A stretch of DNA of 53,000 bases, taken from an uncultured Acidobacteriota bacterium (lineage in GTDB: Bacteria > Acidobacteriota > Thermoanaerobaculia > Multivoradales > SZUA-115). Both the position numbers and the translations under genes were made by a program. Where the stretch lies: contig CALMKX010000377.1 in NCBI GenBank assembly GCA_937867335.1, positions 1 through 53,000 of the forward strand, given 5' to 3'. Below are positions 13,876 to 46,531 of this stretch, piece after piece (position 1 is the stretch's first letter; every line of letters starts with the position of its first letter). Below the pieces are notes generated by a model. That model was not told the origin of the DNA and did no database searches. It was given only the letters and a program-made list of their open reading frames with translations.

Positions 13876-14339
13876 GGGGGGGAGGTCCACCCAGCCAAAC
13901 GCAGCTGAATCGAGGTGTACGACTCTCCCTGTTCCAGCATCAGGATCAGTCGCGCACGGCGCGCAACCGCCGAGACCGCGCCCGTCCCTCAAGCTCCTCG
14001 CGATCTTCAAGGCTTAATACAACTCTTGTCGTCCCCATGACCGAGAGAACAACAGGCTCTCGGTGTCAGTTCCAAGGTTGCGAGCCAGTAGTCACCGCGA
14101 TCTCAGCGTTGCGCGAGCCGAGTGATCTCCGGCCGGGAGGTCCGTGAGCGAGGATCGCTCAACAATTGGACGTGGTCGGTTTCGGTCTGCTTCTCGCGTT
14201 TCTCAACAGGCCAGGAAGCCGTGCCCTCTGCTTCCCTGGAACACGGTCGCTCGATAAGGATCCCGCGGAAGCGATAGAATGATTATGTAGGTCTCTATGC
14301 TTGCTCCTGAGCACGTGGCTATTTTGCGAGGGATTGTCC
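13876..14339. other. 464-base non-coding junction between mobile element and CHAT cluster
   Basis: No convincing gene. A 91-residue frame overlapping the relaxase end has no family resemblance. A perfect small hairpin TGAGCGA-GGA-TCGCTCA lies at 14145-14161. The last ~60 bases (GCGATAGAATGATTATG near 14268-14286) are AT-richer and may hold the promoter of the CHAT gene at 14340. The right edge of the mobile element should be somewhere in this interval. Confidence 0.45.
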
Positions 14340-16562: not shown

Positions 16563-16565
16563 ACG

Positions 16566-18941: not shown

Positions 18942-18954
18942 GAGGAAGGAGAGC

Positions 18955-21900
18955 ATGGACGAGGACGCCCCTCCTGCCGACCTGACCGTACCCTTCAACC
19001 GCGCCTGGACGGGCAGCCGCGAGCACGGCGTGCTCTCGGGTCAGCTCGCAGCTGCGGATCCTGAAGCCTGGGTGCGCCTGGCGCTCCCCCTTGTGCGCGC
19101 CGTCGCTTCAGTGCCAGGTGAGATCCTCTCTGCCTCAGCTTTGACCGCTGTAGCAGATGGGTTCCTGCTCTCCGTCCCTGGGCCTGGACCGCCCTGGTTT
19201 GTCCAGTTTCTCCACTTCGCGGAACCAGGTGACCGGCTCGGCGAGCTCCATCTTGAGGTCTGCCAGGCGAGTGTTAGGAAGCTGACCGAAAGTCGCGTTT
19301 CCGCAAGTCGCTATCTCCTGATTCACAACAGCGACCACCGCAACCCAGCCTTCCGTCAAGGTCTCGAGACTGCCGTCTCTGAGCCCGTCAGGGCCGGCCG
19401 AGTCGAGCGTGCTGAGGTGTGGGATCGCCAGCGGCTGCTTCGCGAGGCATTTAACGCCATGGCCTCCCACGTCCTGGCATCCGCTCGCGCCGGGGCTCTC
19501 TCCGTTGCTTCGGTGGAACAGGCGTTGGTAGGGGAGCCGCTCTCTGAAGTGCCCCTCCAACAGTCTCTGCTCACAGCGAACCAGCACAAGCTCCTCTCCG
19601 AAGCGCCCATGGGGGGCCCTGCCGTCGTGGATCCAGCGGCAGTGATCTTCGACGAGGCCAAGGAGAACATCAGCTTGCTCCTCGGGACCTTCGGCTTCGG
19701 CAAGACCACCGCCATCGCTCGCCGCCTGCGGGATCGGTCTTCGCAAGTACTCTTCGTGCCCGGAGGCCGGCTCACCGGAGACATCCGGAGCACCAAGGAC
19801 TTCGTCTCCCAGTGCATCGCGCTGGACAGTCTCCTCGGGGACGAGAGCCACCTTGATCGGTTGCTGCTCGAGAGAGTGGCTCGTCCGACCGCGCTGTTGC
19901 TGTTCAAGGACGAGAGCTTGCCGCTGGTGCTGGTGCTCGACGCGCTCGACGAGTCCGCGTTCCTGTGCCGTCAGGGGGGTCTCCTGGCGCTGTTCAACAA
20001 CCTGCGGGAGGTGCGCATCCCCGTTGTGCTCGCGATGCGCCAGGAGTTCTGGCTGAGCCGCCGGCTGGAGCTCGAGGAGAGCTTCGGAATGCTGGCGACC
20101 AAGACCCCGGATCGGATCTCCCGGATCCGGGCCGTTGAGCTGCTACCGTGGCAGGACGACCAGATCCTCGCTTGCCTGAGTCGGGCCCGGGAGCTCGTCA
20201 CTGCCGAGGAGGAGAGACAGAGGCTCGCGGACCTCGCCCGCGTGGTAGCGGAAGGCCGACTGGATGGATTCTACGGAGACCTGGCACGCAGACCCCTGTT
20301 TCTCCGCTTCATCGTCGAGAGCGTGGCCGAGGAGGGGCTGCCGGGACAGAAGGTGAGCCGTGCTCAGCTCTATTGCGACTGGATCCGGCGCAAGATCCTG
20401 CGGGACATGTTGGCGCCTCGCCGGGAAGGAGGCGAGAGGCCCGAACTGCTTTTCCCGGGCGAACCTCCCGAGCAAGTCCTCGAGCTCGCGTGGGAAGCTA
20501 TGCTCCAGGCCGCGGCTGCCATGGCATGTGAGCATCACGGCATCCTCGAGCTCGAGGCCGAGGTGGAGCTCGAGAGTGTGCTCGGAGCGAGCCCGCGCCT
20601 CCAGCAGGTGAAAGACGCGCTCGCCCTTGTTCTGCAGAGTCTCTTGCTGCCAAACGGTCCTCGCCGCGGTGAGCGGCCCGCGCGGGTGGCCTTTGCACAC
20701 CGCACCTTCCAGGAGTTCTTCTTCGCTTGGCTTCTGGTCCGGGAAGGCGGCCCACAAGCCCCGCTGCTACTGCCGCCAGAAGTTGAGGAGTGGTGCGAGC
20801 AGCTCGCGCAGGAGAGCCTAGTGGCGAAGCGTTTGGGGGCAAGTGGCTGGCGACCAGAACCCTCGGGCTCCATTCAGAAAGAGCCGCGCAGGGCTTCTCA
20901 TCATCCTGGCCCCAGCGACGCACCGGACCTCGAGCTTCTGATCGATGAGGTTCCAGGGCATCAACACCGTCGATTCCGAGTTCACCTCTCCGCCCGGGAT
21001 ATCAAGCTCGGGCTCAATCACCAATCCTTGGGGGAGATCAACTTCGCGGCCGACCCAGCTCCGTTCTTGACCCGGCACTACCGCGACTTGACAGGGGATT
21101 CGGCCGCCACGAAACCTGTAGGAAGGCTACGATTGGAAATGCTGCGAGTCAAAGGCGCCTACCTGGCAGAGAAGCTCCTGCCTCTCGACCTTCGGCGAAG
21201 GCTAGCATCCCTGATCGGCCGGGCACAGACCCTCCTGATCCAGTCGGACGAGCCCTGGATCCCCTGGGAGCTACTACGGATCGGCCAGACCCCGGAGAGC
21301 GACGCCGCGGACGGCCCCTTTCTCGCGGAGGCTTTCCGTGTAACTCGCTGGCTGAGTTCGATTCCACAAACAGTTTGGTTGCCCGTGTCCAAGCTCGCCC
21401 TGGTGATCCCCCGAGACTCCAGACTCCCTCATGCCACCAGCGAGTGTGAAGAGCTGCTGAAGCTGAGCCAAACCCAAGGCCGGGACGTGGTGCGGCTGTC
21501 AGCGAGCCTCACCCCGTTGCGCCAAGGGTTCCGCGAGGGTCTCTACGACGCCTGGCATTTCACCGGCCATGGTCTAGAGAGCGGCGGCGTGGACCCAGAC
21601 CAGGTAGGTCTCCTCCTCGAGGAGCAGGAGTACTTGACACCCCAAGAGCTCAGCGGCGAGGGCAAGAGGATGGGGCGCAAGCGCCCGCTGGTCTTCTTCA
21701 ATTCCTGTGACTCCGCACGAGCCAGTTGGTCTCTCACCGAAATCGGAGGCTGGGCTCCGGCCTTCCTGGGTGCCGGTGCGGGTGCGTTCCTGGGGTCCTA
21801 TTGGCCCATCCGCGACGCTAGGGCCGGCGCTTTCGCCCAGGAGTTCTACCGGCGGTTTCTGGCGGGTGCCACCATCGCGGATGCGATGCACCAGAGCCGC

Positions 21901-21999
21901 GAGGCGATCCGTTCTGACGACGATCCCACCTGGCTCGCCTACACTCTTTTTGCCCATCCGGGGGCGGTGTGCAGACCACGCCCACCTGGACCCAGCTAA
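18955..21999 (+). CDS. NACHT-type NTPase fused to a C-terminal CHAT peptidase
   Basis: 1,014 residues; ATG 18955 behind AGGAAGG. Three parts are visible. Residues ~40-190 look like a restriction-endonuclease-like or degenerate PD-(D/E)xK fold as found before some NACHT domains (WFVQFLHF ... HLEVCQASVRKL ... YLLIHNSDHR ... EVWDRQRLL), but the expected QxK is QFL, so it is probably inactive. Residues ~235-620 are a NACHT NTPase: Walker A GTFGFGKTT (Lys250), Walker B LVLVLDALDES (Asp329), and a winged-helix-like region with HRTFQEFFFAWLL. Residues ~690-1010 are a CHAT domain: WIPWELLRIG, AWHFTGHG (His872), FFNSCDSA (Cys918), GAFLGSYWPIRD. The order is the reverse of the CHAT-STAND neighbour at 14340. 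A ligand-activated protease is the likely role. The gap to the TPR gene is 13 nt. Confidence 0.85.
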   Translation: MDEDAPPADLTVPFNRAWTGSREHGVLSGQLAAADPEAWVRLALPLVRAVASVPGEILSASALTAVADGFLLSVPGPGPPWFVQFLHFAEPGDRLGELHLEVCQASVRKLTESRVSASRYLLIHNSDHRNPAFRQGLETAVSEPVRAGRVERAEVWDRQRLLREAFNAMASHVLASARAGALSVASVEQALVGEPLSEVPLQQSLLTANQHKLLSEAPMGGPAVVDPAAVIFDEAKENISLLLGTFGFGKTTAIARRLRDRSSQVLFVPGGRLTGDIRSTKDFVSQCIALDSLLGDESHLDRLLLERVARPTALLLFKDESLPLVLVLDALDESAFLCRQGGLLALFNNLREVRIPVVLAMRQEFWLSRRLELEESFGMLATKTPDRISRIRAVELLPWQDDQILACLSRARELVTAEEERQRLADLARVVAEGRLDGFYGDLARRPLFLRFIVESVAEEGLPGQKVSRAQLYCDWIRRKILRDMLAPRREGGERPELLFPGEPPEQVLELAWEAMLQAAAAMACEHHGILELEAEVELESVLGASPRLQQVKDALALVLQSLLLPNGPRRGERPARVAFAHRTFQEFFFAWLLVREGGPQAPLLLPPEVEEWCEQLAQESLVAKRLGASGWRPEPSGSIQKEPRRASHHPGPSDAPDLELLIDEVPGHQHRRFRVHLSARDIKLGLNHQSLGEINFAADPAPFLTRHYRDLTGDSAATKPVGRLRLEMLRVKGAYLAEKLLPLDLRRRLASLIGRAQTLLIQSDEPWIPWELLRIGQTPESDAADGPFLAEAFRVTRWLSSIPQTVWLPVSKLALVIPRDSRLPHATSECEELLKLSQTQGRDVVRLSASLTPLRQGFREGLYDAWHFTGHGLESGGVDPDQVGLLLEEQEYLTPQELSGEGKRMGRKRPLVFFNSCDSARASWSLTEIGGWAPAFLGAGAGAFLGSYWPIRDARAGAFAQEFYRRFLAGATIADAMHQSREAIRSDDDPTWLAYTLFAHPGAVCRPRPPGPS

Positions 22000-30157: not shown

Positions 30158-32383
30158 CTATGCCGGGCCGATGAAATCCAACAGCTCGCCGGGGTCTTTC
30201 TGCATCTCCCGCCGGGTGTGGTGCTCGCCCAGCAGGTCCGGCAGCATGGGCTCGATCCAGCGGTCCCCGGGATAGGTGTCCCGCAGCAGCCGGGCCACCT
30301 GTACTTTCACGGCCCTGGGCTGGTCCTGGAACAGGCGCAAGCGATCCAGCACCGCGATGGCGTGCTCTTCGTCCCGGGCACCGGCCCAGGAGTTGAAGAC
30401 CGCCATAGCGCGGCCGATACCTTCGACCAGGATTGCCGGGATCGCGCGCTCGGCCGCCAGCTTCTGCCAGAAGCGCTGCTCTCGGCGAAGGATGTAGTCC
30501 AGCAGGTCGTCCCGCTCCCGCAGGGGCTTGTCCTCGAGCGCGGCCAGGGCCTGCATGTGGAGGTAGAGAACCCGCTGGTAGAAGCCGGCCGAGAGGTCAG
30601 GTGGTTCCTCCTCGGGCAGAGGCTTGTGAAGATGCCCCGCGAAAGCCGAGAGGGCGGCCAGATACGAGGCCCGGCGCTCCGCCAAGCCATTAGCCAGAGG
30701 CTGAAGGGTCCACCAGCGGCTGGCTGGGCCGCTCAGGAAGTCGCCCACACCGTCTCCCTCGGTCTGGAGGGCGTCCCACCAGCCGTAGGAGCCCCGAGCG
30801 AGCAAGATGAGCCGCACCTTGCCCCGCTCTAGCCGGTCCATCACCCGCACCAGGGGGATGAGCAGGTCCCGCCGCCTCTCGGCGTAGTCCACCACCGCCA
30901 GCACGGGCTTGTCCTTGGCCAGCAGAGCCTGGAGGTGCCTAGCTGCGGAGAGCTCGGCCCCTGGCTCGTCGCTGTAGAGCCCGGTCTCCCAACCCGCATT
31001 GCGCAGGCGCTGGCAAAGCTCGAGAGATAGGCGTGTCTTGCCCATGCCGCCGGCCCCGGTGTAGAGCCGCACGGCGGCGAGCGAGCCGTCGCCGCACCAA
31101 TCCGTGAGGCCGACCAGCTCCTCCTCTCGACCATGGAAGGGCACTACGCCGTACTCCGCCCGCAGCAAGGCGCCCGGCGGGGAGAAGTCCGGCCGCCACC
31201 GGGCCTCGGGAATCGAGAGCGGGCTCGGCCCCAGGCCCAGGCGCAGATGGGCCCCGGGATGGGCATAGACCTGGTAAGCCAGCCAGGCGGTGCTCGAAGG
31301 GTACTTCTCCCGCAGCGCCAGTCGGGCCTGCCGCGCAGCCCGCGCCACGGTAGCCCCGGCCTCCAGGGCGTTGTAGAAGCCAGTGGCGAAGAGAACCGCA
31401 AGGCTGTCGCGCACCTCCCACATCGGCCCCAAGAAGGCACCACAGCCGCAGGTCTGGAGGAAAAGGGGCACCCAGCCACCGAGGCGGGTGAGCCCGAGCG
31501 CCAGCCGGCTGCCCGCGCAGCTGTTGAAGAAGACCAAGGGACGGTCCCTGCGCAGGCGGTTCTCGATCAAGCCGTAGAGATCCCGGGGCCGGAGGTGCCG
31601 GCCCTCGGCCAGCTGGAACAAGGAGGCGTTGGGATCCTCGCCTTCGAAGCTCCCATGCCCCACGAAGTGGAGCACACCGCAGCCTCCTCGCGACAGCAGC
31701 TCCTCGACCTCCTCGAAGCGGGCCGATGCCAGAATCTTGGCTTCGACGCCTCCGTGGCGGCCGGCCAGCTCGGTGAAGAAGCGCCGCTCCCCCTCGGCAC
31801 GCAGCAGCGCGGGTGCCCCGGCCACCGAGCCGGTCTCGATCACACCCAGGCGACTGAGGCCGATCTCGTCGGCGCCGAGGTCCGAGGCCGGGGTGGTGCG
31901 GCCAGCGAGCCAGCGCACCAGCTCGAACTGGCAGCAGAGGAAGTCATCGTCGAAGGTCTCGCCGTAGGGTTTGACCAGTTCCCAGGGAATCCAGGGCTCG
32001 TCCGAGACGATCTGCAGGGTGGTGATCTTGTCGCGGACCTCTTCGTAAGCGCGTTGGAGAGCTTCCGGGAAGACCTCCCGATACAGCTCCCGGCCCAGGC
32101 CAGCGAGCTCTCGCTCGAACCTCCCCGGCGTCGCCTTGGCCACGTGCTCTCGCCCGTCGAGGCCGTGGAACAGCAGCAGCCGGCTCTCGAAGTAGGTCTC
32201 GAGCTTGCCGGGGCCGAGGATCAAATCGCCCTGGAGGCGGTGTCGGGTGTAGGGCACCCTGCCCGTGCCCGAGTGCAGCTCGAAGCGCAGGCGGGTGCCG
32301 CCGGCGACCTCCTCCGACTCGATGCGGAGGGTCAGGTCCGCGGCACCAGCCACTGATCTCGCTCGCTCGATCTCACTCATCAT
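30158..32383 (-). CDS. CHAT peptidase - STAND NTPase protein (2)
   Basis: 741 residues; ATG 32383 behind GAGGG, 9 nt after the stop of the large TPR-CHAT gene. Domain order equals the protein at 14340: an N-terminal beta-rich part, WIPWELV, LHFVGHG (His243), FFNSCAGS (Cys289), GAFLGPMWEVRD, the linker ALLRAEYGVVPFHGRE, Walker A TGAGGMGKTRLS (Lys449), VLAVVDYAE, and the C-terminal RWIEPMLPDLLGEH. Both dyad residues are present, so the peptidase should be competent. Four TPR genes follow immediately, mirroring the CHAT-STAND / TPR pairing at 14340-18941. Likely a ligand-gated protease of the same pathway. Confidence 0.88.
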   Translation of the reverse strand: MMSEIERARSVAGAADLTLRIESEEVAGGTRLRFELHSGTGRVPYTRHRLQGDLILGPGKLETYFESRLLLFHGLDGREHVAKATPGRFERELAGLGRELYREVFPEALQRAYEEVRDKITTLQIVSDEPWIPWELVKPYGETFDDDFLCCQFELVRWLAGRTTPASDLGADEIGLSRLGVIETGSVAGAPALLRAEGERRFFTELAGRHGGVEAKILASARFEEVEELLSRGGCGVLHFVGHGSFEGEDPNASLFQLAEGRHLRPRDLYGLIENRLRRDRPLVFFNSCAGSRLALGLTRLGGWVPLFLQTCGCGAFLGPMWEVRDSLAVLFATGFYNALEAGATVARAARQARLALREKYPSSTAWLAYQVYAHPGAHLRLGLGPSPLSIPEARWRPDFSPPGALLRAEYGVVPFHGREEELVGLTDWCGDGSLAAVRLYTGAGGMGKTRLSLELCQRLRNAGWETGLYSDEPGAELSAARHLQALLAKDKPVLAVVDYAERRRDLLIPLVRVMDRLERGKVRLILLARGSYGWWDALQTEGDGVGDFLSGPASRWWTLQPLANGLAERRASYLAALSAFAGHLHKPLPEEEPPDLSAGFYQRVLYLHMQALAALEDKPLRERDDLLDYILRREQRFWQKLAAERAIPAILVEGIGRAMAVFNSWAGARDEEHAIAVLDRLRLFQDQPRAVKVQVARLLRDTYPGDRWIEPMLPDLLGEHHTRREMQKDPGELLDFIGPA

Positions 32384-32392
32384 CTAGAGCCC

Positions 32393-35300
32393 TCACACCG
32401 CCAATCGCACGGCCGGATCGCCCAGGAGAATGAAGTTACGGGCATCGTTGTGGGTGGTCCACAGGCGGGCGAAGTCGCGGGCCTGGGTGGACTCGTAATG
32501 GAGCTGATCCTCCCAGGCGCCGTTCAGGCGCTTGGCGAGCTGGTTGTAGAGGGTGGCGAGGGCCTGCATGGCCTCGCCCACGGGAAGATCGAGGACCAGC
32601 CCCTTCAAAAGCTGGTGGAGCACGTCGACACCTTCGCCAGCATCTGAGCCGCTGAAGGTGCCAGTGTTGGAGCGGTCAACGTGACCGATCACCGCCAGGG
32701 CTGCCCCTGGCCGGCGGTCGGCGTCGCGGTGCGAAAGCAAGCGCTGGGGGAGGCGTGAAAGCAAGGGTTTTGGGCTGATCCTCTGGGGCCGCTTTAGGGG
32801 GAAGTGGTCGAAGCTGTCTCGTTCTGGAGTGCCGGCGCTGTGGCAGGCGAGGAGCACCCAGATCATCCCGGCAACGTCATCCTCCGGGCGGAGATCACTC
32901 GCTGTGAAGTATTGGTCGCAGGTAAGCCCGCTCGACTGCCCGGGCCCTCGCCAGTCCTGGCAGACCAGCGCTCCTTGGCACTCCTTCATGCGCCCATCCT
33001 CGAGCGGGAAGCCGAGGCCGTGCGTGGCCGTGAGCACTAGGGCCGGCCGCTCGCTGCTCCTCAGCAGCTGCCGAAGCCTCGCCTTGGTAGCAGCCCCTTC
33101 CCCCACCAGCTGTTCCACTCGCCAGCTCTCGCGCGCCCCGAAGGAGCGGCCAGCGAGGTGCGCCACCAGGTAGCCCGCCATCTGCTCGGTAGCCCGATCC
33201 CCTGGGTTACAAGGAGCGAAGTAGGTCACGGTACGATTCCGTCGGCACAGCTTCCTCTCGGCATCGATCACACTCTGGACGTAGCAGCGGTAGTCTTCTT
33301 CGTTCTCGAAGCTCAAGCGCCCCACCGCGTAGTGGAAGCCCAGCTCGCGTTGGAAGCGGAAGGAGATCGACTCCGGCCCCCCCACCAGGAGCAGGTAATA
33401 GGGCATCTTTTCCGGATGCTCCACCATGGCGTCAGGTTGGACGTGGTGGCGGAGCAGGAAGTCCTCCGCGCTTTCACCTTCGCGCAGATCGAAAAACTGT
33501 ACGTAGCGCTCCTTGCCCCCACTCGACAAGACCTGCTCTCGGCGCCAGTCCACCAGCCTGTCGAGAGCCTGCCGCACCATGGGCGAGAGGTTCGGGCCAT
33601 AGACAACTCCCCAGCCCGTGTCACCCAGCTTGCGGGCGTCAAGCCACGGAGCCAGTCGGCGGAAGGGATCCTCTTCGTCCAATCGCGAGATCCAGGTCTC
33701 GAGCCAAGCCCGCTTCCCAGGGTCCTTTTCACAAGCCCAGATGAGCTCCAGCACTTCGAGGGTTGACTTCGCCATCACCAGGTAATCGCCGGTGGTGCCG
33801 TCGACGCCATTGAAGTAGAACCGCGACGCCTCAGCGACTCGCTCTCGAGCCACACGATCCCCAGGCATCGGATCTCCGATTCGACGGGCTGCGGCGGTCC
33901 CCCCCGTGTCCGCCTCCTCGATGTCGTCATCGGGCTTGCGGTCGAAGTCACCCGAGAAGACGAAACCGGCCCAGTGGTAGGGCTCCTGGTACTGCCCGCT
34001 CTCGAGCAGCTCGCGCTGCGCCCGCGCCAAGGCCAGGGCCGTGGGCGAGCCCTCCTCGAAGAGCTGGCGGTAGAACCTCTGCATCAGCTCGGCGGTGCTG
34101 TCGTCGTCCACCTTCCACAGGCTCATCACTACCTGGGAGGCCCCGGCGTGGAAGAAGCCGCGGGCCAGGCTCAAGAGACCCTCACCCCGCTGCTCCGCCC
34201 CCACACCGGTCTCACAGGCGGACAGCACTACAAGGTTGGCACCCAGCTTCAGGTCGTAGATCTCGTGCAGACGCAGGAAGCCGTCCAACGGGTTGCCATC
34301 GCGATCGAAGAGGGAGAGCACCACTCCCGAAAGCTCGGGGTGCAGCGGGTCCACCAGGGTGTGAGTCGCCAAGTGGAGGATGCGAGCTTGGCTCATCTTC
34401 GGGTCGAGCAGCAGAGCTTTGGTAGCGTCGAAACCATAGGCCACTTCTGCCGGTGCCGGGTGCACGGTCTCGACGATGGCCTCCACCTCACGGCGGGCTC
34501 CAGGCAAAGGCGCCAGGCGAGTGAATCCCAGCGACCGAGCTGTGGGCGCCAGGTCCGAGGGCACACTCGTCGAGGGTTCACCGGGCGGGGAGAAGGCAGG
34601 GTCCGCTAGGGCGGCCAGCCTGGGCTGGTGAGATAGAACCTGCCTCGGCACCTGGCCCCGGCGCAGTGCCGGCAGCACCGAGGCCGACGGCAACGTGACG
34701 ATCTCATGCGCGGCCACCAGGTACTGCTCCGGCTCGGCCAGGGCCTCGGTGCCCGGCACCTTGAGAGCCGCGAAGGGCACCCGGTGCAGGGCGCCGTCCG
34801 GCACCACGATTACCATCCGCCGACGGTCCAGCTCCTGGGCTGCAGGGAGGAGCAGCAGGCGGGACAGCTCCCGACCTGCAATCTCGCGCCGATCTTTGGC
34901 GCTCTCCCCAGGCTGGGCGACGGCCTCGGCGAAGGCCCTCGCCAGAGCCTCGAGGTCGGCTCGACCCGGCAAGGCATGGAGCTTGAGGTCGTTGACCGTG
35001 ACCACCCAGAGGAAGCTGCGCTCCTCACCGAGGGAGATCTCGAGCAGCACGTGATTAGGCTCGAGCACACCACGGTCCCGGAGCTGCTGGAGAGACAAAG
35101 GAGCAGGGTGCACGAGTCCGTCGCGGCGAGGAAAAGCCTGCCGGAGCTGACCCTGGGCGCTGTCCAGCAGGGCCAGTCGCTGGCGGATTTCTCGTTCGAG
35201 GCTCGAGGCTTGCTCTGTGCGGCCAGCTTCTTGAGACTCCCGTCGACGGCGGTCTAGAGCATTGATCTGGGCTCTTAGCGCTCGCGTTTTTGCCAGTAGA

Positions 35301-37072
35301 TCCTGAGTGCCACTCGGGGCTACCGTTGACTCGCCGTCGGCGATCTCCTCGAGCAAGGAGCGCGCCCGCCGCCGCTCACTGACATCGAAGGCCCTTCGTT
35401 CATGGCCGGCGTAAGGCTCCTCTTCGTGCAGCCGGAACAGGGCCTCCAGATAGAGTTCCCAGTAGTGTTGCTTGGAAGCGAAGAAGGCAGAGCGTAGGCG
35501 AAGGTTGGGGGAGTTAGCGCGGACATCCTCGAGTGCCGGGAGGCCAACCTCCATCTCTTCAGCGGCCGCGGCCGGATTGCCTTGACTCATGCGCGCTCGG
35601 GCCACGCCATAGTGCGCTTGGGCTACCGCTGCGAGATCTTTGATCTCGGTAAACCAGGTGAGCGCTGCCTGGTACTCGGTAACTGCCTCTTCGGGTCGAC
35701 CGGCTGCCTGGAGGTATCGTCCCAGATTGGTACGGGCGAACGCCTCGTCTGTGCGGTTAGCCTCCTTTTGCGCCAGACTGAGCGCTCGATCAAAGGAGCC
35801 CTTCGCAGCCTCCAGTTGCCCTTCCTCAAGTTGAACGCGACCGAGCGCGCCGAGCGCGGCCACCAGCGGCCGCGTTTGGCTGAGGCCCTCTTGAAGCGAG
35901 ATCGCTCGCTCGAGATGAGCACGGGCAGGGGTGAGAAGCCCTTCGCGGGTCTCCAGGTCTCCGAGCCCCGCCAGCGCCAGCGCCTCGAGCCCTTGATCCT
36001 CGACTTCCTGGGAAATCAGCAGGGCCGCTTCGTAGGCATCACGGGCTTCGGGTCGACGGTCCTGCGCAAGGTAGAGGTCCCCCTGGTTGCACAGTGCGAT
36101 CCCCAGGTCCCGCCGTCGGACGCTGCGCTTGAAGAGTTCGATTGCCTCTTCGTACCGAGCCAGGGCTTCCTGGAGCCGGCCACTGGCCTGATGCACCCGA
36201 GCCTGGTTGTTGAGCGCTGCGCCCTGACCCTCGACATAGCCCTCCGACTTGAAGAGCTCGAAAGCCCGCTCGTGCGGAGCGAGGGCTTGGTCTATCTTCC
36301 CCGAGTCGTAGAGGGCACTTCCCAGCCGGTTGAGGGCTTGGCCTTCCCCGCGAACGTCTCCCAAGGTCTGATAGCGGTCTGCGGCCTCTCGCAGCTCAGC
36401 AATCGCCTCGGGCCACTTCTCCAACTGGTAGTGCACCCACCCGAGTCGATATAGAGCCAGGGCCTCACCCGGTTGATCCCCCAGTTCACGAGTCAGCCTC
36501 AACGCCTCTCGGTAGGGGGTGATGGCGGCCTCCCACTCCCGGGCTCGTCGCTGCACATCGCCTTGGGCTAGGGCCCGCTCGGCTTCGACTTGGCACCGGT
36601 CCGTGGCGGTAGCCCAACGGTGCGCTTCAACTACGAGACGATAGCTCGCGTCTGGAGCCGCGGTGCGCGCGGCCCGGACCTCCAGCCGGTACTCCCCGCC
36701 CGGCTCGGCCACCCAGGAGATGTGCTCGAAACCCCGGTCGCCTGTCGGGCTATCGACCTCGGTCAGCGGTTCGCCGGCCGTCCCGAAGAGGTGGAGCGCC
36801 ACGTCAACTCCTCGCTGCTCCACGCTCACACGGACATACCAGCCTGCCTCGGAGCGGAGCTGATAGCGGTGGATGCCACCACCGGCCAGGGAGCGCTCGA
36901 GCGGTTGGGCAGGATCGAGGGGGGTCGGTTCCAGGTCCTCGGCCATCTCGGGATTCCCTCCGTTCATGGAAACGGGCGTCGCCGGGGACCGGCCTCGCCC
37001 CAACAGACAAAGCAAAGCGAGCCCACCCAGAAGGCAGGCACCGAAGCCGAGCGCTAGCGGGCGGCGGACCAT
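32393..37072 (-). CDS. Membrane-anchored TPR-CHAT protein with a second caspase/C25-like peptidase domain
   Basis: 1,559 residues from ATG 37072. Residues 6-25 form a signal anchor (LALGFGACLLGGLALLCLLG), so the bulk may face the periplasm. Residues ~50-155 look like a PPC-type beta domain (GGIHRYQLRSEAGWYVRVSV). Seven or more classical TPRs follow to ~520, then a coiled segment and a CHAT domain: ILHLATHTL (His904) and VVLSACETG (Cys953), GAS-QVVMSLWKVDD. After a short acidic linker (DDDIEEADTGG) comes another ~500-residue region not found in ordinary TPR-CHAT proteins: LVLTATHGLGFP (His1351) and WVLLACHSAG (Cys1410), again a His/Cys dyad, plus NFILLGDPAVRL at the end, as in gingipain/C25 and CHAT folds. 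Encoded after the sigma-like and membrane genes. Confidence 0.85.
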   Translation of the reverse strand: MVRRPLALGFGACLLGGLALLCLLGRGRSPATPVSMNGGNPEMAEDLEPTPLDPAQPLERSLAGGGIHRYQLRSEAGWYVRVSVEQRGVDVALHLFGTAGEPLTEVDSPTGDRGFEHISWVAEPGGEYRLEVRAARTAAPDASYRLVVEAHRWATATDRCQVEAERALAQGDVQRRAREWEAAITPYREALRLTRELGDQPGEALALYRLGWVHYQLEKWPEAIAELREAADRYQTLGDVRGEGQALNRLGSALYDSGKIDQALAPHERAFELFKSEGYVEGQGAALNNQARVHQASGRLQEALARYEEAIELFKRSVRRRDLGIALCNQGDLYLAQDRRPEARDAYEAALLISQEVEDQGLEALALAGLGDLETREGLLTPARAHLERAISLQEGLSQTRPLVAALGALGRVQLEEGQLEAAKGSFDRALSLAQKEANRTDEAFARTNLGRYLQAAGRPEEAVTEYQAALTWFTEIKDLAAVAQAHYGVARARMSQGNPAAAAEEMEVGLPALEDVRANSPNLRLRSAFFASKQHYWELYLEALFRLHEEEPYAGHERRAFDVSERRRARSLLEEIADGESTVAPSGTQDLLAKTRALRAQINALDRRRRESQEAGRTEQASSLEREIRQRLALLDSAQGQLRQAFPRRDGLVHPAPLSLQQLRDRGVLEPNHVLLEISLGEERSFLWVVTVNDLKLHALPGRADLEALARAFAEAVAQPGESAKDRREIAGRELSRLLLLPAAQELDRRRMVIVVPDGALHRVPFAALKVPGTEALAEPEQYLVAAHEIVTLPSASVLPALRRGQVPRQVLSHQPRLAALADPAFSPPGEPSTSVPSDLAPTARSLGFTRLAPLPGARREVEAIVETVHPAPAEVAYGFDATKALLLDPKMSQARILHLATHTLVDPLHPELSGVVLSLFDRDGNPLDGFLRLHEIYDLKLGANLVVLSACETGVGAEQRGEGLLSLARGFFHAGASQVVMSLWKVDDDSTAELMQRFYRQLFEEGSPTALALARAQRELLESGQYQEPYHWAGFVFSGDFDRKPDDDIEEADTGGTAAARRIGDPMPGDRVARERVAEASRFYFNGVDGTTGDYLVMAKSTLEVLELIWACEKDPGKRAWLETWISRLDEEDPFRRLAPWLDARKLGDTGWGVVYGPNLSPMVRQALDRLVDWRREQVLSSGGKERYVQFFDLREGESAEDFLLRHHVQPDAMVEHPEKMPYYLLLVGGPESISFRFQRELGFHYAVGRLSFENEEDYRCYVQSVIDAERKLCRRNRTVTYFAPCNPGDRATEQMAGYLVAHLAGRSFGARESWRVEQLVGEGAATKARLRQLLRSSERPALVLTATHGLGFPLEDGRMKECQGALVCQDWRGPGQSSGLTCDQYFTASDLRPEDDVAGMIWVLLACHSAGTPERDSFDHFPLKRPQRISPKPLLSRLPQRLLSHRDADRRPGAALAVIGHVDRSNTGTFSGSDAGEGVDVLHQLLKGLVLDLPVGEAMQALATLYNQLAKRLNGAWEDQLHYESTQARDFARLWTTHNDARNFILLGDPAVRLAV

Positions 37073-37156: not shown

Positions 37157-38143
37157 TCAGTCGCCCGCCTCCTTCAGGATCATGATCTCGACCTCGGCTA
37201 GGGGTGAGCTCGAGGCATCGCGATCGCCGAGCAGGCGGAGCAGATAGGCGCCGTCCGGAAAGCGCGCCCGCGGCAAGCTCAGCCAGTGCTCTGCGAGGGG
37301 CGCGAGAGTGATCCCGGAACTGCTCCAGAGTCGCTCCCCCTGGGCGTTGGCGATCTCGACTCGACCACGCCCGACTCTCGTGCTCGGCGCCAGCAACAGC
37401 CGCAGCGAAACCCTGGGCGAGCCCCCCGGCACGCGCACCACGATCTCGGACCGAGGTGTTCCGCCGAGCAGGACTTGTTCTCCCGCCGGGGTAAGGGCGG
37501 GGCCGCTCAGGGACTCGACCTGTTCTTGGAGGCGCAGGGACACCACGCCGAGCCCGATGGAGACGGCCAGCAAAGCCGCAGCGGCGGCCGGCCAAGCCCG
37601 AGCCGACCAACGTAGTGGAACTGGCCTCGACCGACCCGCGGCTAGCCCTTGGGCTCCTAGCAGTTCCCTTCGCGCAGGCACTACGACCTCCTGGATCCAG
37701 TCCTGGTACTCGGGGTCCGTCTCGACCTCTTCACCGAGGGGTGACGAGGCGGCCTCACCCCGGTCCAGCCTTCGCCTCAGCAGGCGGGCCCGCTCGAGGT
37801 CTTCCGGAGCCAGGCTACCCGATCGAGAAGCCCCCACTATCCGACCCGGTTCGACCCGACAGCCGAAAGCGCAGCGCAACACGAGGGGGCCGACCGGCGG
37901 TCCGATCTCGAGATCCGCCCGCCCAACAAGGGGGTTGGTGTCTGCCGGAACTACCAGCCAGCGGCCGCCGCTGGGCTCGATTTCGAGGAGAGCCCACTCG
38001 AGCGCGGCGTCGCCACGGCTTGGCAACACGACCAAGTCTCCCGGGGTGCCCGGCAGGGCGTCCGCGGAGCTCCACGAGGCCGTCCAGCGCCCGTGGGCGG
38101 CACGGAGCAGCTCCTCTCTAGGCTCGGCTTCGTCGCGGCTCAT
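37157..38143 (-). CDS. Single-pass membrane protein, possible anti-sigma-type partner
   Basis: 328 residues; ATG 38143 has a strong AGGAGGG 8 nt upstream that overlaps the end of the sigma-like gene, so the two are co-translated. One membrane helix lies at residues ~183-205 (AWPAAAAALLAVSIGLGVVS). The N-terminal ~180 residues would be on one side (GDLVVLPSRGDAALEWALLE, LRCAFGCRVEPGRIVG, PEYQDWIQEVV) and a beta-rich C-terminal domain (SEIVVRVPGGSPRVSLRLLL) on the other. I recognise no standard anti-sigma zinc motif. Position between a sigma-like factor and a membrane-anchored protease suggests a membrane signal relay that may hold or release the sigma factor. This role is inferred from layout only. 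Confidence 0.6.
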   Translation of the reverse strand: MSRDEAEPREELLRAAHGRWTASWSSADALPGTPGDLVVLPSRGDAALEWALLEIEPSGGRWLVVPADTNPLVGRADLEIGPPVGPLVLRCAFGCRVEPGRIVGASRSGSLAPEDLERARLLRRRLDRGEAASSPLGEEVETDPEYQDWIQEVVVPARRELLGAQGLAAGRSRPVPLRWSARAWPAAAAALLAVSIGLGVVSLRLQEQVESLSGPALTPAGEQVLLGGTPRSEIVVRVPGGSPRVSLRLLLAPSTRVGRGRVEIANAQGERLWSSSGITLAPLAEHWLSLPRARFPDGAYLLRLLGDRDASSSPLAEVEIMILKEAGD

Positions 38144-38155
38144 TCGCCTGCCCTC

Positions 38156-39391
38156 CTATTTGCTAGATACCGGAAGGGCGAGATCCGAGACCAACCCTGA
38201 TCCGGGCCGCCTGCCCGAGTGGAGGGCATGGCAGGCCAGGTAGATCGAACCCAGGTTGCTTAATAGACCCGGGATTCGCTCCCGGGGAATCCCCAGCAGA
38301 TCAGCCAGCCGCCGATGGGAAGGGAGCCCTTCGGTCTCCTCTTCCCTCGGACTTCGCACACTCTGGGCAAGCCGGTCGAGGGAGCCTTGCGGGTTCGCGC
38401 CTGCCACCTGCACGCGCAAGAAGCCCCAGAGCGAGCGCAAGTAGCGACGGGTCCGTTCGGGGGCCTCGAGGCTCTCAAGCCGCTCCTGCACGCAGCCCAG
38501 CACCGCTCGGAGGAATTGGCGCTCTTCGAAAGCGCTCACGGGATCCCGGAGGATTGCGAGTCGGGCAGGTCGCTGCTCGTCTGCCTCGGCCCCTCCGACT
38601 TGACCTTGGTCCCAGAGCGCACCCCATCGAGCTCGCACCTCGGCCTTGAGCGCCTCAGCAAGATCCCGGAAGCGAAACGCCCGCACTCCTTGGCTCGGCA
38701 GGGTCCGGAGCAGCTGGGTCAGGCGGCCGATCAGCTCCTGTAGGTCCCCCCCTCGCGCGGTCACCATATCCGGGAGCAGGACGCCTGCCCACTTGGAGGC
38801 CAGATCAAACCAGACATCGGCGGGCGCAATCGGCGCCGGCGCGGTCAGAGCACTGAGCACCGTGTCGTTGCGGATGCGCTCGTCGCCGTCGAGCACGTTG
38901 AGCTCCCCCGACTCCACGGCGAGCCGAACCGCGTCACGCAACACCTCGAACACCCTCGCCCCCAGGGGATCGTGGTCACGCTGCCGCTCGTGCAGGAATT
39001 GCCGCAGGGCGACGAGAACCAAGCCTTCCACATTCGGCTTTACTAAGAGTTGCGCGCGCAGGCTACGCAGTCGATCGACGAACACAAATACGTAGGCCTC
39101 GGCAGCTAGCTCGTCGAGGGCATCGCCCCTGCCACCGCCGGCCCGGTCCAGCCAGCTGAACGCGCCGAGGACCCCAAGGTAGCGGGGCGGCGCCTGCCAC
39201 AAGCCCCGGCGTCGAAGCTCCCAGATCAGGGTGGTGCGCAGGGCCTGCCAGAGCTGATTTCGTTCTTGCTCGGATACCGGCCCCTCCTCGCCAAGGCGCC
39301 TGAGGTGCTCGGTGAACACCTCAGGCGAAGCTTCACCGTGCTGGCGCTGCTCGCCTCGCCGCTGGAACCACGCCAGCAGGACCCCGATCAC
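38156..39391 (-). CDS. Sigma-70-like (large ECF-type) factor, tentative
   Basis: 411 residues from GTG 39391. GLVLVALRQFLHERQRDHDP followed by LGARVFEVLRDAV is similar to region 2 of sigma-70-like factors in a large ECF-like group, and LPSHRRLADLLGIPRERIPG near the C-terminus is a helix-turn-helix compatible with region 4. The middle (~180-330) is helical and longer than in ordinary ECF factors. It is the first gene of a run that continues with a single-pass membrane protein and the TPR-CHAT protease, and the 145 bases in front of it contain a 9-nt direct repeat that could be its own target promoter. Alternatives are another helical DNA-binding regulator. No -10/-35 can be assigned with confidence. 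Confidence 0.55.
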   Translation of the reverse strand: MIGVLLAWFQRRGEQRQHGEASPEVFTEHLRRLGEEGPVSEQERNQLWQALRTTLIWELRRRGLWQAPPRYLGVLGAFSWLDRAGGGRGDALDELAAEAYVFVFVDRLRSLRAQLLVKPNVEGLVLVALRQFLHERQRDHDPLGARVFEVLRDAVRLAVESGELNVLDGDERIRNDTVLSALTAPAPIAPADVWFDLASKWAGVLLPDMVTARGGDLQELIGRLTQLLRTLPSQGVRAFRFRDLAEALKAEVRARWGALWDQGQVGGAEADEQRPARLAILRDPVSAFEERQFLRAVLGCVQERLESLEAPERTRRYLRSLWGFLRVQVAGANPQGSLDRLAQSVRSPREEETEGLPSHRRLADLLGIPRERIPGLLSNLGSIYLACHALHSGRRPGSGLVSDLALPVSSK

Positions 39392-41529: not shown

Positions 41530-43980
41530 TCAGGGCGCCTCCCTAGGCTCGAGCGCAAGGTCAAGGATGTCTTCTGCGCCTCGCTCTAACTCCCTCAGCA
41601 CGAGATGCTCAGCTAGCAGGTCTGGCTGGAGAGGTTCGATCCATCGATCACCTGAATAAAGCTCGTGAAGAACGCGAACGACCATCGCCAGCGTAGCGGT
41701 CGGTTGGCCGGCAAAGAAACCTAGCTGTGCCAGTACCTGGATGGCATCCTCTTCGGACGAGGCACCACCACGCAAGGTGAAGACGCTCATCGCACGCCCG
41801 ATGCCTTCCTGCACGGGCGCGGGGATCCCCCTGGCTGTCGCCGTCCGTTGCCAGTACCTCTGCTCTTTGGCTAGGACATTATCCAGAAGCCCGTCCTCAC
41901 CCTTGACCTCTACAGATTCGGCTGCAACAAGCGCGCCCATGTGGATGAGCAGGACGTGCTCGAAACAGGGTGCGTGGAGACTGCCCGGCGGCTCCTCAGG
42001 CACGTTCGTCCCAAGTTTTTTGGCAAACGCCTGTGCAGCGAGAAGGTAGGAGCGCTCGCGATCCACGGCTGACGCCGCGACCGGTTGCAGTGGTCGTCGA
42101 GTTGTGGCTGGCCCCGACAGCAGCTCCCCGACGCCATCGCCTTCGGCCTTCAACTGGTCCCACCAGTCGTGCGCCGCGCGGGCCAGGAGCAGCAGCCGCA
42201 CTGGCCCGGTCCTAACCGTCAGGAGGAACCGCAACAATGGCACCAGCCTCTGTCGGCGGATCTCAGCGTAGTCAACGATCAAGAGGATGCGGCCCACAGG
42301 CCAGCCCAACGCTGTCCAGAGCTCCTCGGGGTTCACGGGTGTCTGCTCGGGGAGGAAGCCAGCGACCCAACCCTCCTTGCTCAACACGAGGCCAACTTCT
42401 TGAGCTAGCCGCGTTTTCCCCATGCCGCCAGGGCCAGTGAGCAGGGTCACGGCAAAGCGATCGGCACTCCTGGCCCAACGCAGAAGCGACTCCAGCTCCT
42501 GCTCCCGGCCATGAAAAGGCACCACGCCGTACTCCGGCCGAAGCAGGGCGGAAGGCGGCGAGAGCTCTGGAACCCACCGGCGGAAAGCGACTCTCAGAAT
42601 GTCATCAGTCGAGCCCGACGGTGCTGGGTCTTCGTTCGATTGCTTTTTCTCCTTCTCCCTCTCCTGCTTGCGCAGTGCCTCCGCAGACTCTAGTTCTCTC
42701 TCCAAGCTACGAAGCTCAGCTACCTCTGCGCCGTAAACTGCAGGGGCTGCCAAGGATCTCGGCTCAAGCAGCTCCAGCGCCTCCCGGACGCTCTCGATAG
42801 CCTCAGGGTCCCGCCCCAGATTTCGAAGAGTGGCGGCGGTCCGATGCAGCGCAAGCCCCAACTCAGCGGTGTAGATTTCAGGTATAGCTTGCGCAAGATG
42901 CCGGTACCCTGCAACTACTTCACGCTGCACCTCCAGCGCTCGAGAGATCTCTCCTCGCTCCAGGTGCACCATTCCGAGGTTCCCCAGCGCGCGAGCCAGA
43001 CCCGCCCGATCGGAAAGGTGAACCTGGCCGCCTCGACTGTTCAGGAGTGCCAGCGCTTCCTGGCTGGCGGCTTCGGCCTCCGCCACTCGACCGGAAGAGA
43101 CGAGCTGTGCGCCCAAATCAGTCAGCGCATGGCTGAGCGAGTTGGTGTGCGCAATCGGCTCGGCAGCCGCCAAGTCGCGATACAACGCCACAGCCTCCTC
43201 CCCGGCTGAGAGAGCCCCCTCATCCTGACCAAGGACGGCGAGAGACCGGGCCAGTCGAGTCAACGAGTATGCGAGGCGTGCTCGCTGTACTTCCTGGCTC
43301 TCTCCATGGGCTGGCCCACGCCTTTCTTCCAGCACCCTGCGTTGGAGCTCGAGAGCATCCTCGAACCGCCCCTGAGCCGCCAGCAGCTCACTCCGGCTCT
43401 CGAGAGATTCGATCCACTCGAGATGTGCCCAAGGCGTCGCACCCGCTGCGAGGCCCACACGGATCCCGATCGCTTCCTCGACGGTCGCGAGCGCCTCCTC
43501 GCGCCGCCCGGCAGCCGCCTGCGCAGCGCTCAGAGCGCTCAGGGCCCTGGCCAGATCGGGCAGGAACGCCTCTGGCCGATCCGCTGCGAGGCGGCGAAAC
43601 ACTTCGGTCGCCTCCACACCATGATCTATCGCTTCCTCCACCCGCCCCATCCTCTCGAGAATCCTGGAGTGACCAACTAGGCGCGTGGCAAGGCCGGGAA
43701 GGTGGTGCTGGGGGCGTTCCGAGGCAAGGGTTCGCACGATCGCGAGCGCTTCTTCGGCTGCCGCCAGCGCTTCGTCCCGTCGATTCAGCGCCAGGAGGGT
43801 CTCACCGAGCCGGCTCAGGCTCCGAGACAGGCTCGCCTCGTGGGTCCGGGCCCCGGCGGCAACAAGCCTTCGCCATTGCTCGACCGCCCTCATGGCAGGT
43901 GCAAGAGCATCGTGCCAGCGGCTAGCACGACCAAGGGTTACGCTCAGCTCCTCGAAACTCTCTGCCAGCTCAGGCGTCAT
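41530..43980 (-). CDS. TPR - STAND NTPase protein (no CHAT)
   Basis: 816 residues from ATG 43980, which overlaps the upstream TIR gene by 11 nt. Residues ~1-430 are TPRs without the TGDP module at the front; a charged, coiled linker follows (SLERELESAEALRKQEREKE). Then the same NTPase as in the CHAT-STAND proteins: ALLRPEYGVVPFHGRE, Walker A GPGGMGKTRLA (Lys522), ILLIVDYAE, DWWDQLKAEGDGVGELL, and RWIEPLQPDLLAEHLVLREL at the end. Where the other two proteins carry CHAT in front of this core, this one carries TPRs. It may act as a sensor or regulator rather than effector, perhaps forming mixed rings with the CHAT-STAND proteins. Confidence 0.87.
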   Translation of the reverse strand: MTPELAESFEELSVTLGRASRWHDALAPAMRAVEQWRRLVAAGARTHEASLSRSLSRLGETLLALNRRDEALAAAEEALAIVRTLASERPQHHLPGLATRLVGHSRILERMGRVEEAIDHGVEATEVFRRLAADRPEAFLPDLARALSALSAAQAAAGRREEALATVEEAIGIRVGLAAGATPWAHLEWIESLESRSELLAAQGRFEDALELQRRVLEERRGPAHGESQEVQRARLAYSLTRLARSLAVLGQDEGALSAGEEAVALYRDLAAAEPIAHTNSLSHALTDLGAQLVSSGRVAEAEAASQEALALLNSRGGQVHLSDRAGLARALGNLGMVHLERGEISRALEVQREVVAGYRHLAQAIPEIYTAELGLALHRTAATLRNLGRDPEAIESVREALELLEPRSLAAPAVYGAEVAELRSLERELESAEALRKQEREKEKKQSNEDPAPSGSTDDILRVAFRRWVPELSPPSALLRPEYGVVPFHGREQELESLLRWARSADRFAVTLLTGPGGMGKTRLAQEVGLVLSKEGWVAGFLPEQTPVNPEELWTALGWPVGRILLIVDYAEIRRQRLVPLLRFLLTVRTGPVRLLLLARAAHDWWDQLKAEGDGVGELLSGPATTRRPLQPVAASAVDRERSYLLAAQAFAKKLGTNVPEEPPGSLHAPCFEHVLLIHMGALVAAESVEVKGEDGLLDNVLAKEQRYWQRTATARGIPAPVQEGIGRAMSVFTLRGGASSEEDAIQVLAQLGFFAGQPTATLAMVVRVLHELYSGDRWIEPLQPDLLAEHLVLRELERGAEDILDLALEPREAP

Positions 43981-46438
43981 GGCCCTTCACCTCCCGGTCT
44001 AACAGATCGATGACCTCGGCGAGGATCTCCTCCGCATCCCTCACTCTGCCCAGCTCTCGCCGCGATACAGCCAAGTCCAGGAGTGCTCTGCCCAGAGCCG
44101 TGCGGTGCGCCCCTGGTTGCTCCGACTCGAGCCCTCGCAGAATCGAGACAGCCTCCTCCTGCAGCTGGGCTGCCGCCTCCCAGTGGCCGAAGAAGGCCTG
44201 AGTGCTCCCGAGGCGAATCCTCGCATCTGCGACTTCGGCTCGGTGGCGAGCGTGCAGAATGGCGAGCCAACGCTCTTGAACGGTCAGCGCGACTTCCCTC
44301 AAAGGGATGGCAGCATCGAGGGCGCCGTCCATTAGCTGCTTGGCAAGCCCCTCGATCAGAGAGGGTCTCGCGAGCCTGGAGAGCACCTCTGCCAGTACCT
44401 TCCCGATCGGGTCCCCTGTCTCGACGGCCACCTCGAGGGCTGGGCCGGCGAGGTCGTCCAGTCTGTCCTCGAGCACCTGCCTGAGTCGATGCTCTCCCTC
44501 GGGTAGCCGCTGAGCCAGCCTGGTCAGCAGGGTCAGTGCCTGTTTCGCGCCCTTCGCTGAAGAGAACGCATCAGGCTCTTGCAGCGTCTTGTCAGCCAGA
44601 AGACCTTCTCGCTCCTCCGCTTCGCTCTGCCGTTCTCTCTCGCGACAGGCGTTGAGGTAATCGAGTTCGAGCGTACCCAGCTCCAGCTCTCTGCCTCGGT
44701 TTCGTCCCTCGAGCTCGGCCAGCTCGCTCCCCACCTTCAAGCTGCCCAGTGGACGTCCGAGCCTGTCCCACGCCTGGGCGTTGTCCTTCAGCCGGCGGTC
44801 GATCAGAAGGCCTGCCCGATCCTGCTCTATCCAGCCAGCGAGCGTCGTGCCTGGCTGCAGCAAAGCCGCGTGGGCCAAGCTGACCACACCGTTCGCCGCT
44901 CCTGGCCCAACCTCCTCTGCGAGCAACCGCTTCTTCGACAGTGTCTCAATCAGCCCGGCCTGCTGCCAGCTCACCGGTAGATCGCTGCGGCGCACAGGCC
45001 TCGGCAAGCCCGGCATTCCATCTCCACCAACATGCACCAGCGAAAGGAGAAGCCGCTTCGCGGGTTCCCGCAGCGGTTCTGCGAGATCGGCATAGACCTT
45101 CTCCGCATAGCCCGAAAACAAGCCCTGCACTCCGCCGAGCTTGCGGTAGCTCTCCAGAGTCAACCCATTACAGCCAACCTCCTGCCAGAGCTGCCAGAGT
45201 GTGTGCTGTGCGATCGCCATCTGCAGCGAGCGGCCCGCAGGTCCCTCGGAGTCCTCCAAGAGCCGATCGACCAGGGCTTCCTCGATCCTCACACCCACGG
45301 AGTGGGCGGGCTCACGGATTGCGCGGCGAAGATCATCACCACCGAGGGGTGCGACCTCCTTGGCATGCTCTTCGACCCAGGACCCGAGCTTTGGCCATCC
45401 TCTTACAACATCGAGGCACTCGCTCCCAATCGTCATTACGAGCTTCGCGCACTTGTCAGCGCCATCTAGAAGCTCCAAAAGGTTCGAGATGTACTTGGCC
45501 TTGCCCTCGGGGGGCTCAGAGGAGCGAAACAGCTGCTCGAACTGATCGACCAGAAGCAAGACAAATCGGGATCCACCCGACCCACTCACCATGATCTGGA
45601 AGTAGCTCTTCAGGGGCTGATCGCTGGTCCGAAGAGCAGCTTCGACCGAGGCGATCTGGCCGCTGGGATCGGCAGATACCATGGGAAGTTGCCTACACAC
45701 CGATCTCGCTAGCTCCCGGAAGGGGTTATCCCCCGGGACGGTGGTCACTACCGGCCATTGCGAGCTGCCATCGATGCCACCTTGATGGAGACGGTGGATC
45801 AGCCCGGCACGGGCGAGGGAAGACTTCCCAGCACCCGAGGGCCCGATCAGGGCCAGCATCGGGTTGCCCGAGAGATAGGTCAGCAGCTGGTTTATCAGTT
45901 CCTCGCGGCCCTTGAAGAAGCGGTCGTGCTCGACGTCGAAGGCGTACAAGCCTTGGTACGGGCACGTCCCCACTCCGCTCTGGACGGTAGCCGCCGGTCC
46001 TGGCCCCGGGGGCAAGCCCCGAACCGCCGACTTGAGAACGTGAAGGGCCCATTGGTCTTCGAGACCCAAGCGAAAATCCACCCACCCTCGATTCCCAAGG
46101 AAGTGGGGCAACTCGGGCATGCGATCGGGGGGCAGGCCCTTGAGCAGGACGGGAAACACGGGGAAAGAGGCGTCACGCGCTGCCGTATCGAGAGCCCTGC
46201 AAAGCTCCTGGTTCGCCCAGGGTCCAAGCCTGCTGGGCCCCACGAAAACAGCGCAGCTCCGGCTAGCGTCCAGCGCCTCCCCCAGGGCCGGTACCCAGTT
46301 CTGCCCCGGTACCAGGTGCCACTTGTCGAGGAACGCCACGATCCCCTCGGCAAGCAGCCGCCTCGCCAGGTGCTCCACCGCTTCCTTGTCCGCGCTGCTA
46401 TGGCACAAGAAAACGTCGTATTGTTTGCTTGACGACAT
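43970..46438 (-). CDS. TIR - nSTAND1-like NTPase with C-terminal TGDP module and short TPR
   Basis: 822 residues from ATG 46438 (MSSSKQYDVFLCHSSADKEA); an ATG four codons earlier is equally possible. Residues 1-140 are a TIR domain: DVFLCHSSADK, AFLDKWHLVPGQNW, CAVFVGPSRLGPWANQELCRA with Glu78 at the place of the NADase catalytic Glu. Residues ~160-560 resemble the nSTAND1 NTPase: YQGLYAFDVEHDRFFKGREE, Walker A IGPSGAGKSSLARAG (Lys205), FVLLLVDQFEQLF. After a coiled stretch, residues ~640-760 are the same module as in the TPR genes (LTLLTRLAQRLPEGEHRLRQ, PALEVAVETGDPIGKVLA, AIPLREVALTVQERWLAIL), then one or two TPRs. NAD depletion as effector output is likely if Glu78 is catalytic. Confidence 0.87.
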   Translation of the reverse strand: MSSSKQYDVFLCHSSADKEAVEHLARRLLAEGIVAFLDKWHLVPGQNWVPALGEALDASRSCAVFVGPSRLGPWANQELCRALDTAARDASFPVFPVLLKGLPPDRMPELPHFLGNRGWVDFRLGLEDQWALHVLKSAVRGLPPGPGPAATVQSGVGTCPYQGLYAFDVEHDRFFKGREELINQLLTYLSGNPMLALIGPSGAGKSSLARAGLIHRLHQGGIDGSSQWPVVTTVPGDNPFRELARSVCRQLPMVSADPSGQIASVEAALRTSDQPLKSYFQIMVSGSGGSRFVLLLVDQFEQLFRSSEPPEGKAKYISNLLELLDGADKCAKLVMTIGSECLDVVRGWPKLGSWVEEHAKEVAPLGGDDLRRAIREPAHSVGVRIEEALVDRLLEDSEGPAGRSLQMAIAQHTLWQLWQEVGCNGLTLESYRKLGGVQGLFSGYAEKVYADLAEPLREPAKRLLLSLVHVGGDGMPGLPRPVRRSDLPVSWQQAGLIETLSKKRLLAEEVGPGAANGVVSLAHAALLQPGTTLAGWIEQDRAGLLIDRRLKDNAQAWDRLGRPLGSLKVGSELAELEGRNRGRELELGTLELDYLNACRERERQSEAEEREGLLADKTLQEPDAFSSAKGAKQALTLLTRLAQRLPEGEHRLRQVLEDRLDDLAGPALEVAVETGDPIGKVLAEVLSRLARPSLIEGLAKQLMDGALDAAIPLREVALTVQERWLAILHARHRAEVADARIRLGSTQAFFGHWEAAAQLQEEAVSILRGLESEQPGAHRTALGRALLDLAVSRRELGRVRDAEEILAEVIDLLDREVKGHDA

Positions 46439-46531
46439 TGTCAGGAGCATTCTAGAGCAGTCTGACCCGGGGCCTCACGGAGCCCGGGGCAACTCATGCA
46501 GGCGAATTGCATGAACTTCTGACTCCTGGAC

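Follow-up and report, generated by a model that had tools for sequence, protein, structure and literature searches.

A TPR-CHAT protease fused to a divergent gingipain-fold peptidase beside a putative sigma/anti-sigma pair in an uncultured Acidobacteriota bacterium

The DNA analysed here, referred to below as the window, is a stretch of 53,000 nucleotides from an uncultured Acidobacteriota bacterium (contig CALMKX010000377.1, positions 1 to 53,000). The gene in focus and the parts of its product are as follows:

32393..37072, minus strand: focal gene, encoding a hydrophobic N-terminus, a beta-rich region, a TPR array, a CHAT domain, a linker and a C25-like peptidase
37001..37057, minus strand: hydrophobic segment, residues 6-24 (signal peptide or signal anchor; hydropathy 2.41)
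36623..36910, minus strand: residues ~55-150, a putative PPC-type-like beta region, named from resemblance by eye
35513..36571, minus strand: TPR array, residues ~168-520 (Pfam TPR_12, E 1.6e-35; AlphaFold helices)
33947..34879, minus strand: CHAT peptidase domain, residues 732-1042 (Pfam PF12770, E 1.8e-69)
34361..34363, minus strand: His904, predicted CHAT catalytic His (motif LATHT; alignment)
34214..34216, minus strand: Cys953, predicted CHAT catalytic Cys (motif SACETG; alignment)
33821..33946, minus strand: inter-peptidase linker, residues 1043-1084 (~40 residues)
32396..33820, minus strand: C25-like (gingipain-fold) module, residues 1085-1559 (Pfam C25, model and PDB matches, hhalign)
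33020..33022, minus strand: His1351, predicted catalytic His (motif TATHG; 64/64 sequences)
32843..32845, minus strand: Cys1410, predicted catalytic Cys (motif LLACHSAG; 63/64 sequences)

The open reading frame is intact and encodes 1559 amino acids starting from an ATG, and coding-like GC values at the codon positions persist through to the end of the chain, meaning that the last 500 residues belong to a real frame. Residues 6-24 are the only segment of the chain with a hydropathy above 1.6. Residues 1-165 have phmmer matches in TPR-CHAT relatives, in which the region ~55-150 is conserved, and the Pfam scan returned no match for this beta-rich region. All four catalytic motifs singled out by the first-pass annotation are located at the positions it gave, and both active sites look intact at the sequence level. 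The two loose motifs of the second domain occurred together in 0.055% of shuffles of the last 510 residues, a value to be read with the patterns having been chosen post hoc.

The CHAT domain scores 234.9 bits against PF12770 (cut-off 24), and none of the 26 CHAT domains of this type that were aligned has lost the His904/Cys953 dyad. When residues 160-1050 were modelled with AlphaFold from nine sequences (pLDDT 81), the best Foldseek match was DdvA (E 1e-14), followed by separase and Csx29. The VIA-align scores of this half against Csx29 chains are Z 24-28, with up to 598 residues aligned; on the TPR part alone, however, TPR-only proteins reach the same scores or higher ones. The first half of the chain is probably an exported TPR-CHAT protease with the architecture of DdvA and Csx29. 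DdvA (PDB 8rw5, 8rot) is a transmembrane anti-sigma factor from Myxococcus xanthus and the partner of the ECF sigma factor DdvS, with which it takes part in ECF sigma control (PMC4374960). In contrast with DdvA, which is itself the anti-sigma factor, the focal locus has its anti-sigma-like protein encoded by a separate gene, no anti-sigma domain was found in the focal chain by the Pfam scan, and a C25-like peptidase has been added at the C-terminus. Csx29 of the type III-E Craspase shares the TPR and CHAT architecture, whereas the N-terminal hydrophobic segment and the second peptidase domain distinguish the focal chain from it, and the score for the NCBIfam Csx29 model NF041237 (23.9 bits) lies below the cut-off of 300. 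The protein that Csx29 cleaves, Csx30, inhibits an ECF sigma factor (PMC10028731).

The second domain passes the Pfam Peptidase_C25 cut-off only marginally (24.1 bits against 23). Its AlphaFold model, built from a 64-sequence alignment, is of high confidence (pLDDT 91.3, pTM 0.93), and the top five PDB matches found by Foldseek are all gingipains (E 9e-10 to 4e-8), RgpB having an E of 9e-10. VIA-align gave Z 26.9 for RgpB (313 residues, 3.0 A) and Z 24 for Kgp, then a gap before the Craspase CHAT domain and separase at Z 15; the caspase-like part of DdvA also matches this half, at Z 13. The two-part gingipain catalytic fold is present, residues 61-484 of the model aligning to residues 1-348 of RgpB, and strands 268-274 and 329-333 (model numbering) are followed by His276 and Cys335 respectively, in agreement with the description of clan-CD peptidases, in which the His and the Cys each follow a strand of the sheet (PMC4357240). 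The comparison with gingipain and CHAT folds proposed by the first-pass annotation thus came out in favour of the gingipain fold rather than an unrelated one. Profile comparison with hhalign against 23 canonical C25 domains from the same order gave 97% (E 2e-11, 293 columns) with the His, the Cys and the GDPA motif in register, in contrast with 0.5% for the local CHAT family. These fold and profile matches indicate that the second domain is, by sequence and predicted structure, a divergent branch of the C25 (gingipain) family and not a CHAT duplicate, as the two hhalign values rule out a duplicated CHAT domain; a chance motif or an unrelated fold is in turn ruled out by the Pfam C25 match, the conserved family, the AlphaFold model and the gingipain match. 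The earlier proposal that two clan-CD peptidase domains follow one another in a single chain therefore has support from the fold, the profile matches and the conservation of the dyads.

The gingipains RgpB and Kgp share with this domain the fold (Z 24-27) and the order of His and Cys, and the C-terminal GDPA motif is common to it and canonical C25. The differences from gingipains comprise an identity of ~15%, an extra conserved N-terminal segment and the existence of stand-alone relatives lacking a signal. The Ig-like C-terminal domain of RgpB, a feature of gingipains and not of the whole C25 family, is absent, the focal chain ending at the catalytic fold. Conserved FNGVDGxTGxYL and GDPAxRL motifs mark the start and the end of the module, of which the N-terminal ~60 residues are conserved and yet fall outside the part matched to gingipain. 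In the same genomes, canonical C25 proteins form a separate set scoring ~190-280 bits, as against less than 30 bits for the C25-like copies, and plasmid-borne relatives carry the public annotation 'C25 family cysteine peptidase'.

With residues 1056-1559 as the query, 16 of 59 genomes belonging to the order proved to contain relatives, mostly stand-alone genes of 450-530 codons. Of 29 sequences, all have His1351 and 28 have Cys1410. When 85,000 species genomes were scanned, 193 C25-like places were confirmed and 80 were kept, belonging to Acidobacteriota, Cyanobacteriota, Chloroflexota, Planctomycetota, Myxococcota, Desulfobacteria, Pseudomonadota and others. Across the 64-sequence alignment His1351 is invariant, and the single replacement of Cys1410 (63/64) is a Ser. 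Also invariant (64/64) is Asp1292, which opens a helix that comes after a strand in the model; by topology only, this position would resemble that of Asp163 of RgpB. At 20 of 106 columns the C25-like half of the focal chain deviates from the broader consensus; since its close relatives do so as well and the dyad is kept, we do not claim that this half is decaying. One relative (L087:7736-11989) is a 1418-aa frame with two C25-like domains, the first of which carries Ser instead of the catalytic Cys.

Fusion of the two peptidases is the rarer arrangement. The module occurs in 15 of 72 genomes of the order, with ~42 copies in total that are mostly stand-alone, and five copies are fused to a TPR-CHAT chain (that of the window, G021:C244, G021:C625, G009:C26 and G014:C4); outside the order, in the phylum sample, all nine copies found are unfused. 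The unfused C25-like gene mostly follows a TPR-CHAT gene. Among the matches listed, 28 copies could be placed, and 23 of them have a CHAT domain on the same strand that ends no more than 2 kb upstream. As ~8 further copies and those at contig edges are left out, this proportion may be an overestimate, and it would be 23/36 if all eight lacked a CHAT neighbour. With 450 CHAT domains in ~110 Mb, a CHAT neighbour would be expected by chance for ~0.4% of copies. The sequence and the length of the linker differ in every fused chain, and in the tree three fused copies fall in one clade and that of the window elsewhere, which would call for two fusion events; the fusion may also have had a single origin. 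Genetic linkage and fusion together support a shared pathway, but not an order of action. Searches of freely accessible papers on C25 with CHAT returned no description of both together or of their fusion; the parts are each known, and their arrangement as a fusion appears to be new. No relative was found in IMG/VR with the patterns used, nor in a phage collection, that would point to a viral or phage origin.

Two genes lie directly upstream of the focal gene and one downstream:

37157..38143, minus strand: 328 aa with a single TM segment at residues 185-203; relatives have the TM anti-sigma factor at this position
38156..39391, minus strand: 411 aa, member of a conserved family, located where relatives have the ECF sigma factor; possibly a divergent sigma-like protein
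30158..32383, minus strand: next gene downstream, CHAT with a STAND-type NTPase (9 bp gap)

The downstream gene is probably in the same operon as the focal gene. In relatives, the unfused order is ECF sigma factor, zinc-finger anti-sigma factor, lipoprotein-like TPR-CHAT protein and C25-like protein. At five such loci (L092, L102, L105, L112 and L122) the gene pair before TPR-CHAT is canonical: one member encodes sigma-70 regions 2 and 4 throughout, and the other a TM protein that matches zf-HC2 at four of the loci, in one case below the cut-off; the HxxxCxxC motif is found in the TM proteins of further loci. At the window and at L034, L036 and L046, the sigma and anti-sigma places are held by the 411-aa family and a TM protein. 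The TM protein of the window is related to those of other loci; it has no Pfam match and HxxxCxxC is absent from it. The 411-aa gene likewise has no Pfam match, including to sigma70 regions 2 and 4, and the hhalign match of its family to ECF sigma factors is weak (2.3%) and confined to a region-2 stretch; we call the family sigma-like because of its position and this match. From position and sequence we infer that the two genes form a sigma/anti-sigma pair. In two fused chains (L041 and L042), no sigma-like or anchor match was found within the stretch examined. The family of ~400 aa that occupies the ECF sigma place without a Pfam match, in the window (38159-39391) and at L133-L162, has a consensus with the core KpNIDGLV...HErQrrHDPLG and an HTH-like C-terminal end; at some loci, such as L046, it shares a reading frame with the TM protein. 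At L052:8743-10779 (minus strand), a C25-like domain and part of a TM anti-sigma-like protein, without the TM segment, share one frame. CHAT genes have also been described in the genetic context of ECF54-type sigma factors, for which proteolytic control has been proposed (PMC8999054); in contrast with the focal setting, that context is without an anti-sigma factor.

This arrangement suggests that the two proteases, usually encoded by adjacent genes beside a sigma/anti-sigma pair, would work together in signal-controlled protein cutting. On balance we think that the focal gene is a fusion of these normally adjacent protease genes, forming part of a sigma-linked two-protease signalling module. 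The TPR/CHAT half would sense a signal at the cell envelope and the CHAT domain would cut the adjacent anti-sigma-like membrane protein (37157-38143), its presumed substrate; cleavage would free the sigma-like protein (38156-39391), leading to increased expression of the cluster, and the C25-like half would be switched on in the same event, if the timing is as we suppose, to act as a second protease. A signalling role is thereby inferred, exerted through sigma release and the joint action of both proteases.

The main unexplained point is a mismatch of compartments. Of the signal anchor suggested by the first-pass annotation, the hydrophobic N-terminus is confirmed, but relatives mostly have a lipoprotein-type signal, and as a lipobox-like Cys follows the segment in most of them, 'exported or tethered' fits better than 'anchor'. 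Most stand-alone C25-like proteins begin shortly before the FNGVDG motif and are without an export signal. To judge from these N-termini, both peptidases would lie outside in the fused chain and on two sides of the membrane in the unfused sets; direct activation of a signal-less stand-alone C25-like protein by an exported CHAT protease does not fit the unfused form. The linker of the focal chain holds an ATG (Met1069, 33868) with GGAG 5 bases upstream, a possible internal start that could give a cytosolic C25-like product; this combination is missing from the other four fused chains.

The wider surroundings bring in the main rival explanation, a role in defence. The focal gene lies in an island (14301-21999 on the plus strand, 24508-48877 on the minus strand) in which CHAT-STAND genes, a TIR-nSTAND1 gene (43970-46450) and numerous genes for TPR proteins are densely packed; the window has no fewer than three other CHAT genes (14301-16562, 18955-21999 and 30158-32383), and beside the island are a Prim-Pol/AAA primase (7680-9485, minus strand) and a MobA-type relaxase (10714-13875, plus strand), which hint at a mobile element or plasmid. 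A large part of the wider C25-like family adjoins CHAT-STAND or alpha/beta-hydrolase genes, with no sigma-like match found there, and in other phyla stand-alone C25-like genes often follow an alpha/beta-hydrolase-like gene. The latter, of ~440 codons, is directly upstream at ~20 loci (e.g., L055:90-1409 and L195:4515-5843), and a gene of ~270 aa without a Pfam match is directly downstream at ~20 loci of other phyla (e.g., L055:3395-4198 and L070:6671-7486). One frame (L072:9974-12616) fuses a TIR domain to the C25-like domain. The fusion might accordingly do no more than co-locate two proteases, each with its own substrates, in a conflict island of the anti-phage or cell-suicide type. The richness of the window in CHAT, STAND, TIR and TPR genes, the fusions of the C25-like domain elsewhere to TIR and to CHAT (L043), and the C25-like genes that elsewhere adjoin CHAT-nSTAND1-WD40 or alpha/beta-hydrolase genes all speak for it. 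The pairs with alpha/beta-hydrolase-like genes resemble the caspase/alpha-beta-hydrolase pairs of MoxR-vWA conflict systems described by Kaur (2020; PMC7159879), a paper in which C25 is not named; no alpha/beta-hydrolase gene was found at the window locus. We nevertheless regard independent effectors as doubtful, given that close relatives are tied to sigma/anti-sigma genes and that PADLOC models recognise no known defence system in the window, matching only TPR proteins and, weakly, BovA.

A cascade within one molecule, as envisaged by the first-pass annotation, appears similarly improbable. Here the CHAT initiator would cut the linker or the N-terminal FNGVDG segment and so release the active C25-like protease. 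Gingipains and several other clan-CD enzymes are activated by proteolysis (PMC4357240), the linker parts the two domains, and the N-terminal residues of the module that fall outside the gingipain match are conserved; against this, the linker is variable across all fused chains, the N-terminal segment is also conserved in C25-like genes without a TPR-CHAT neighbour, and the stand-alone proteins are signal-less while their TPR-CHAT neighbours look exported. The corresponding single-chain relay, with TPR-CHAT as sigma-linked initiator and the gingipain-fold peptidase as the executor that it activates, is given little weight. If it were true, one envelope signal would both switch transcription and launch proteolysis, and two different clan-CD families would make up a bacterial counterpart of initiator and executioner caspases. 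A secreted general protease like gingipain (for nutrition or surface processing), with the TPR-CHAT half as a carrier, would fit the gingipain fold and the N-terminal hydrophobic segment of the fused chain, but is very hard to reconcile with stand-alone members that have no signal peptide and with the separate, far higher-scoring canonical C25 set.

In conclusion, the sigma-linked module of two normally adjacent proteases, here fused, is the reading that we prefer. As fused copies provide both proteases in a fixed ratio on one chain, the order in which they act can be read from single Cys mutants. A single CRISPR system is known to employ TPR-CHAT proteases against sigma-factor inhibitors, and a single anti-sigma factor, from a myxobacterium, to have a related fold. 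The present locus and its relatives point to a wider, CRISPR-independent group of such proteases, in which a second clan-CD protease of another family may be a regular partner.
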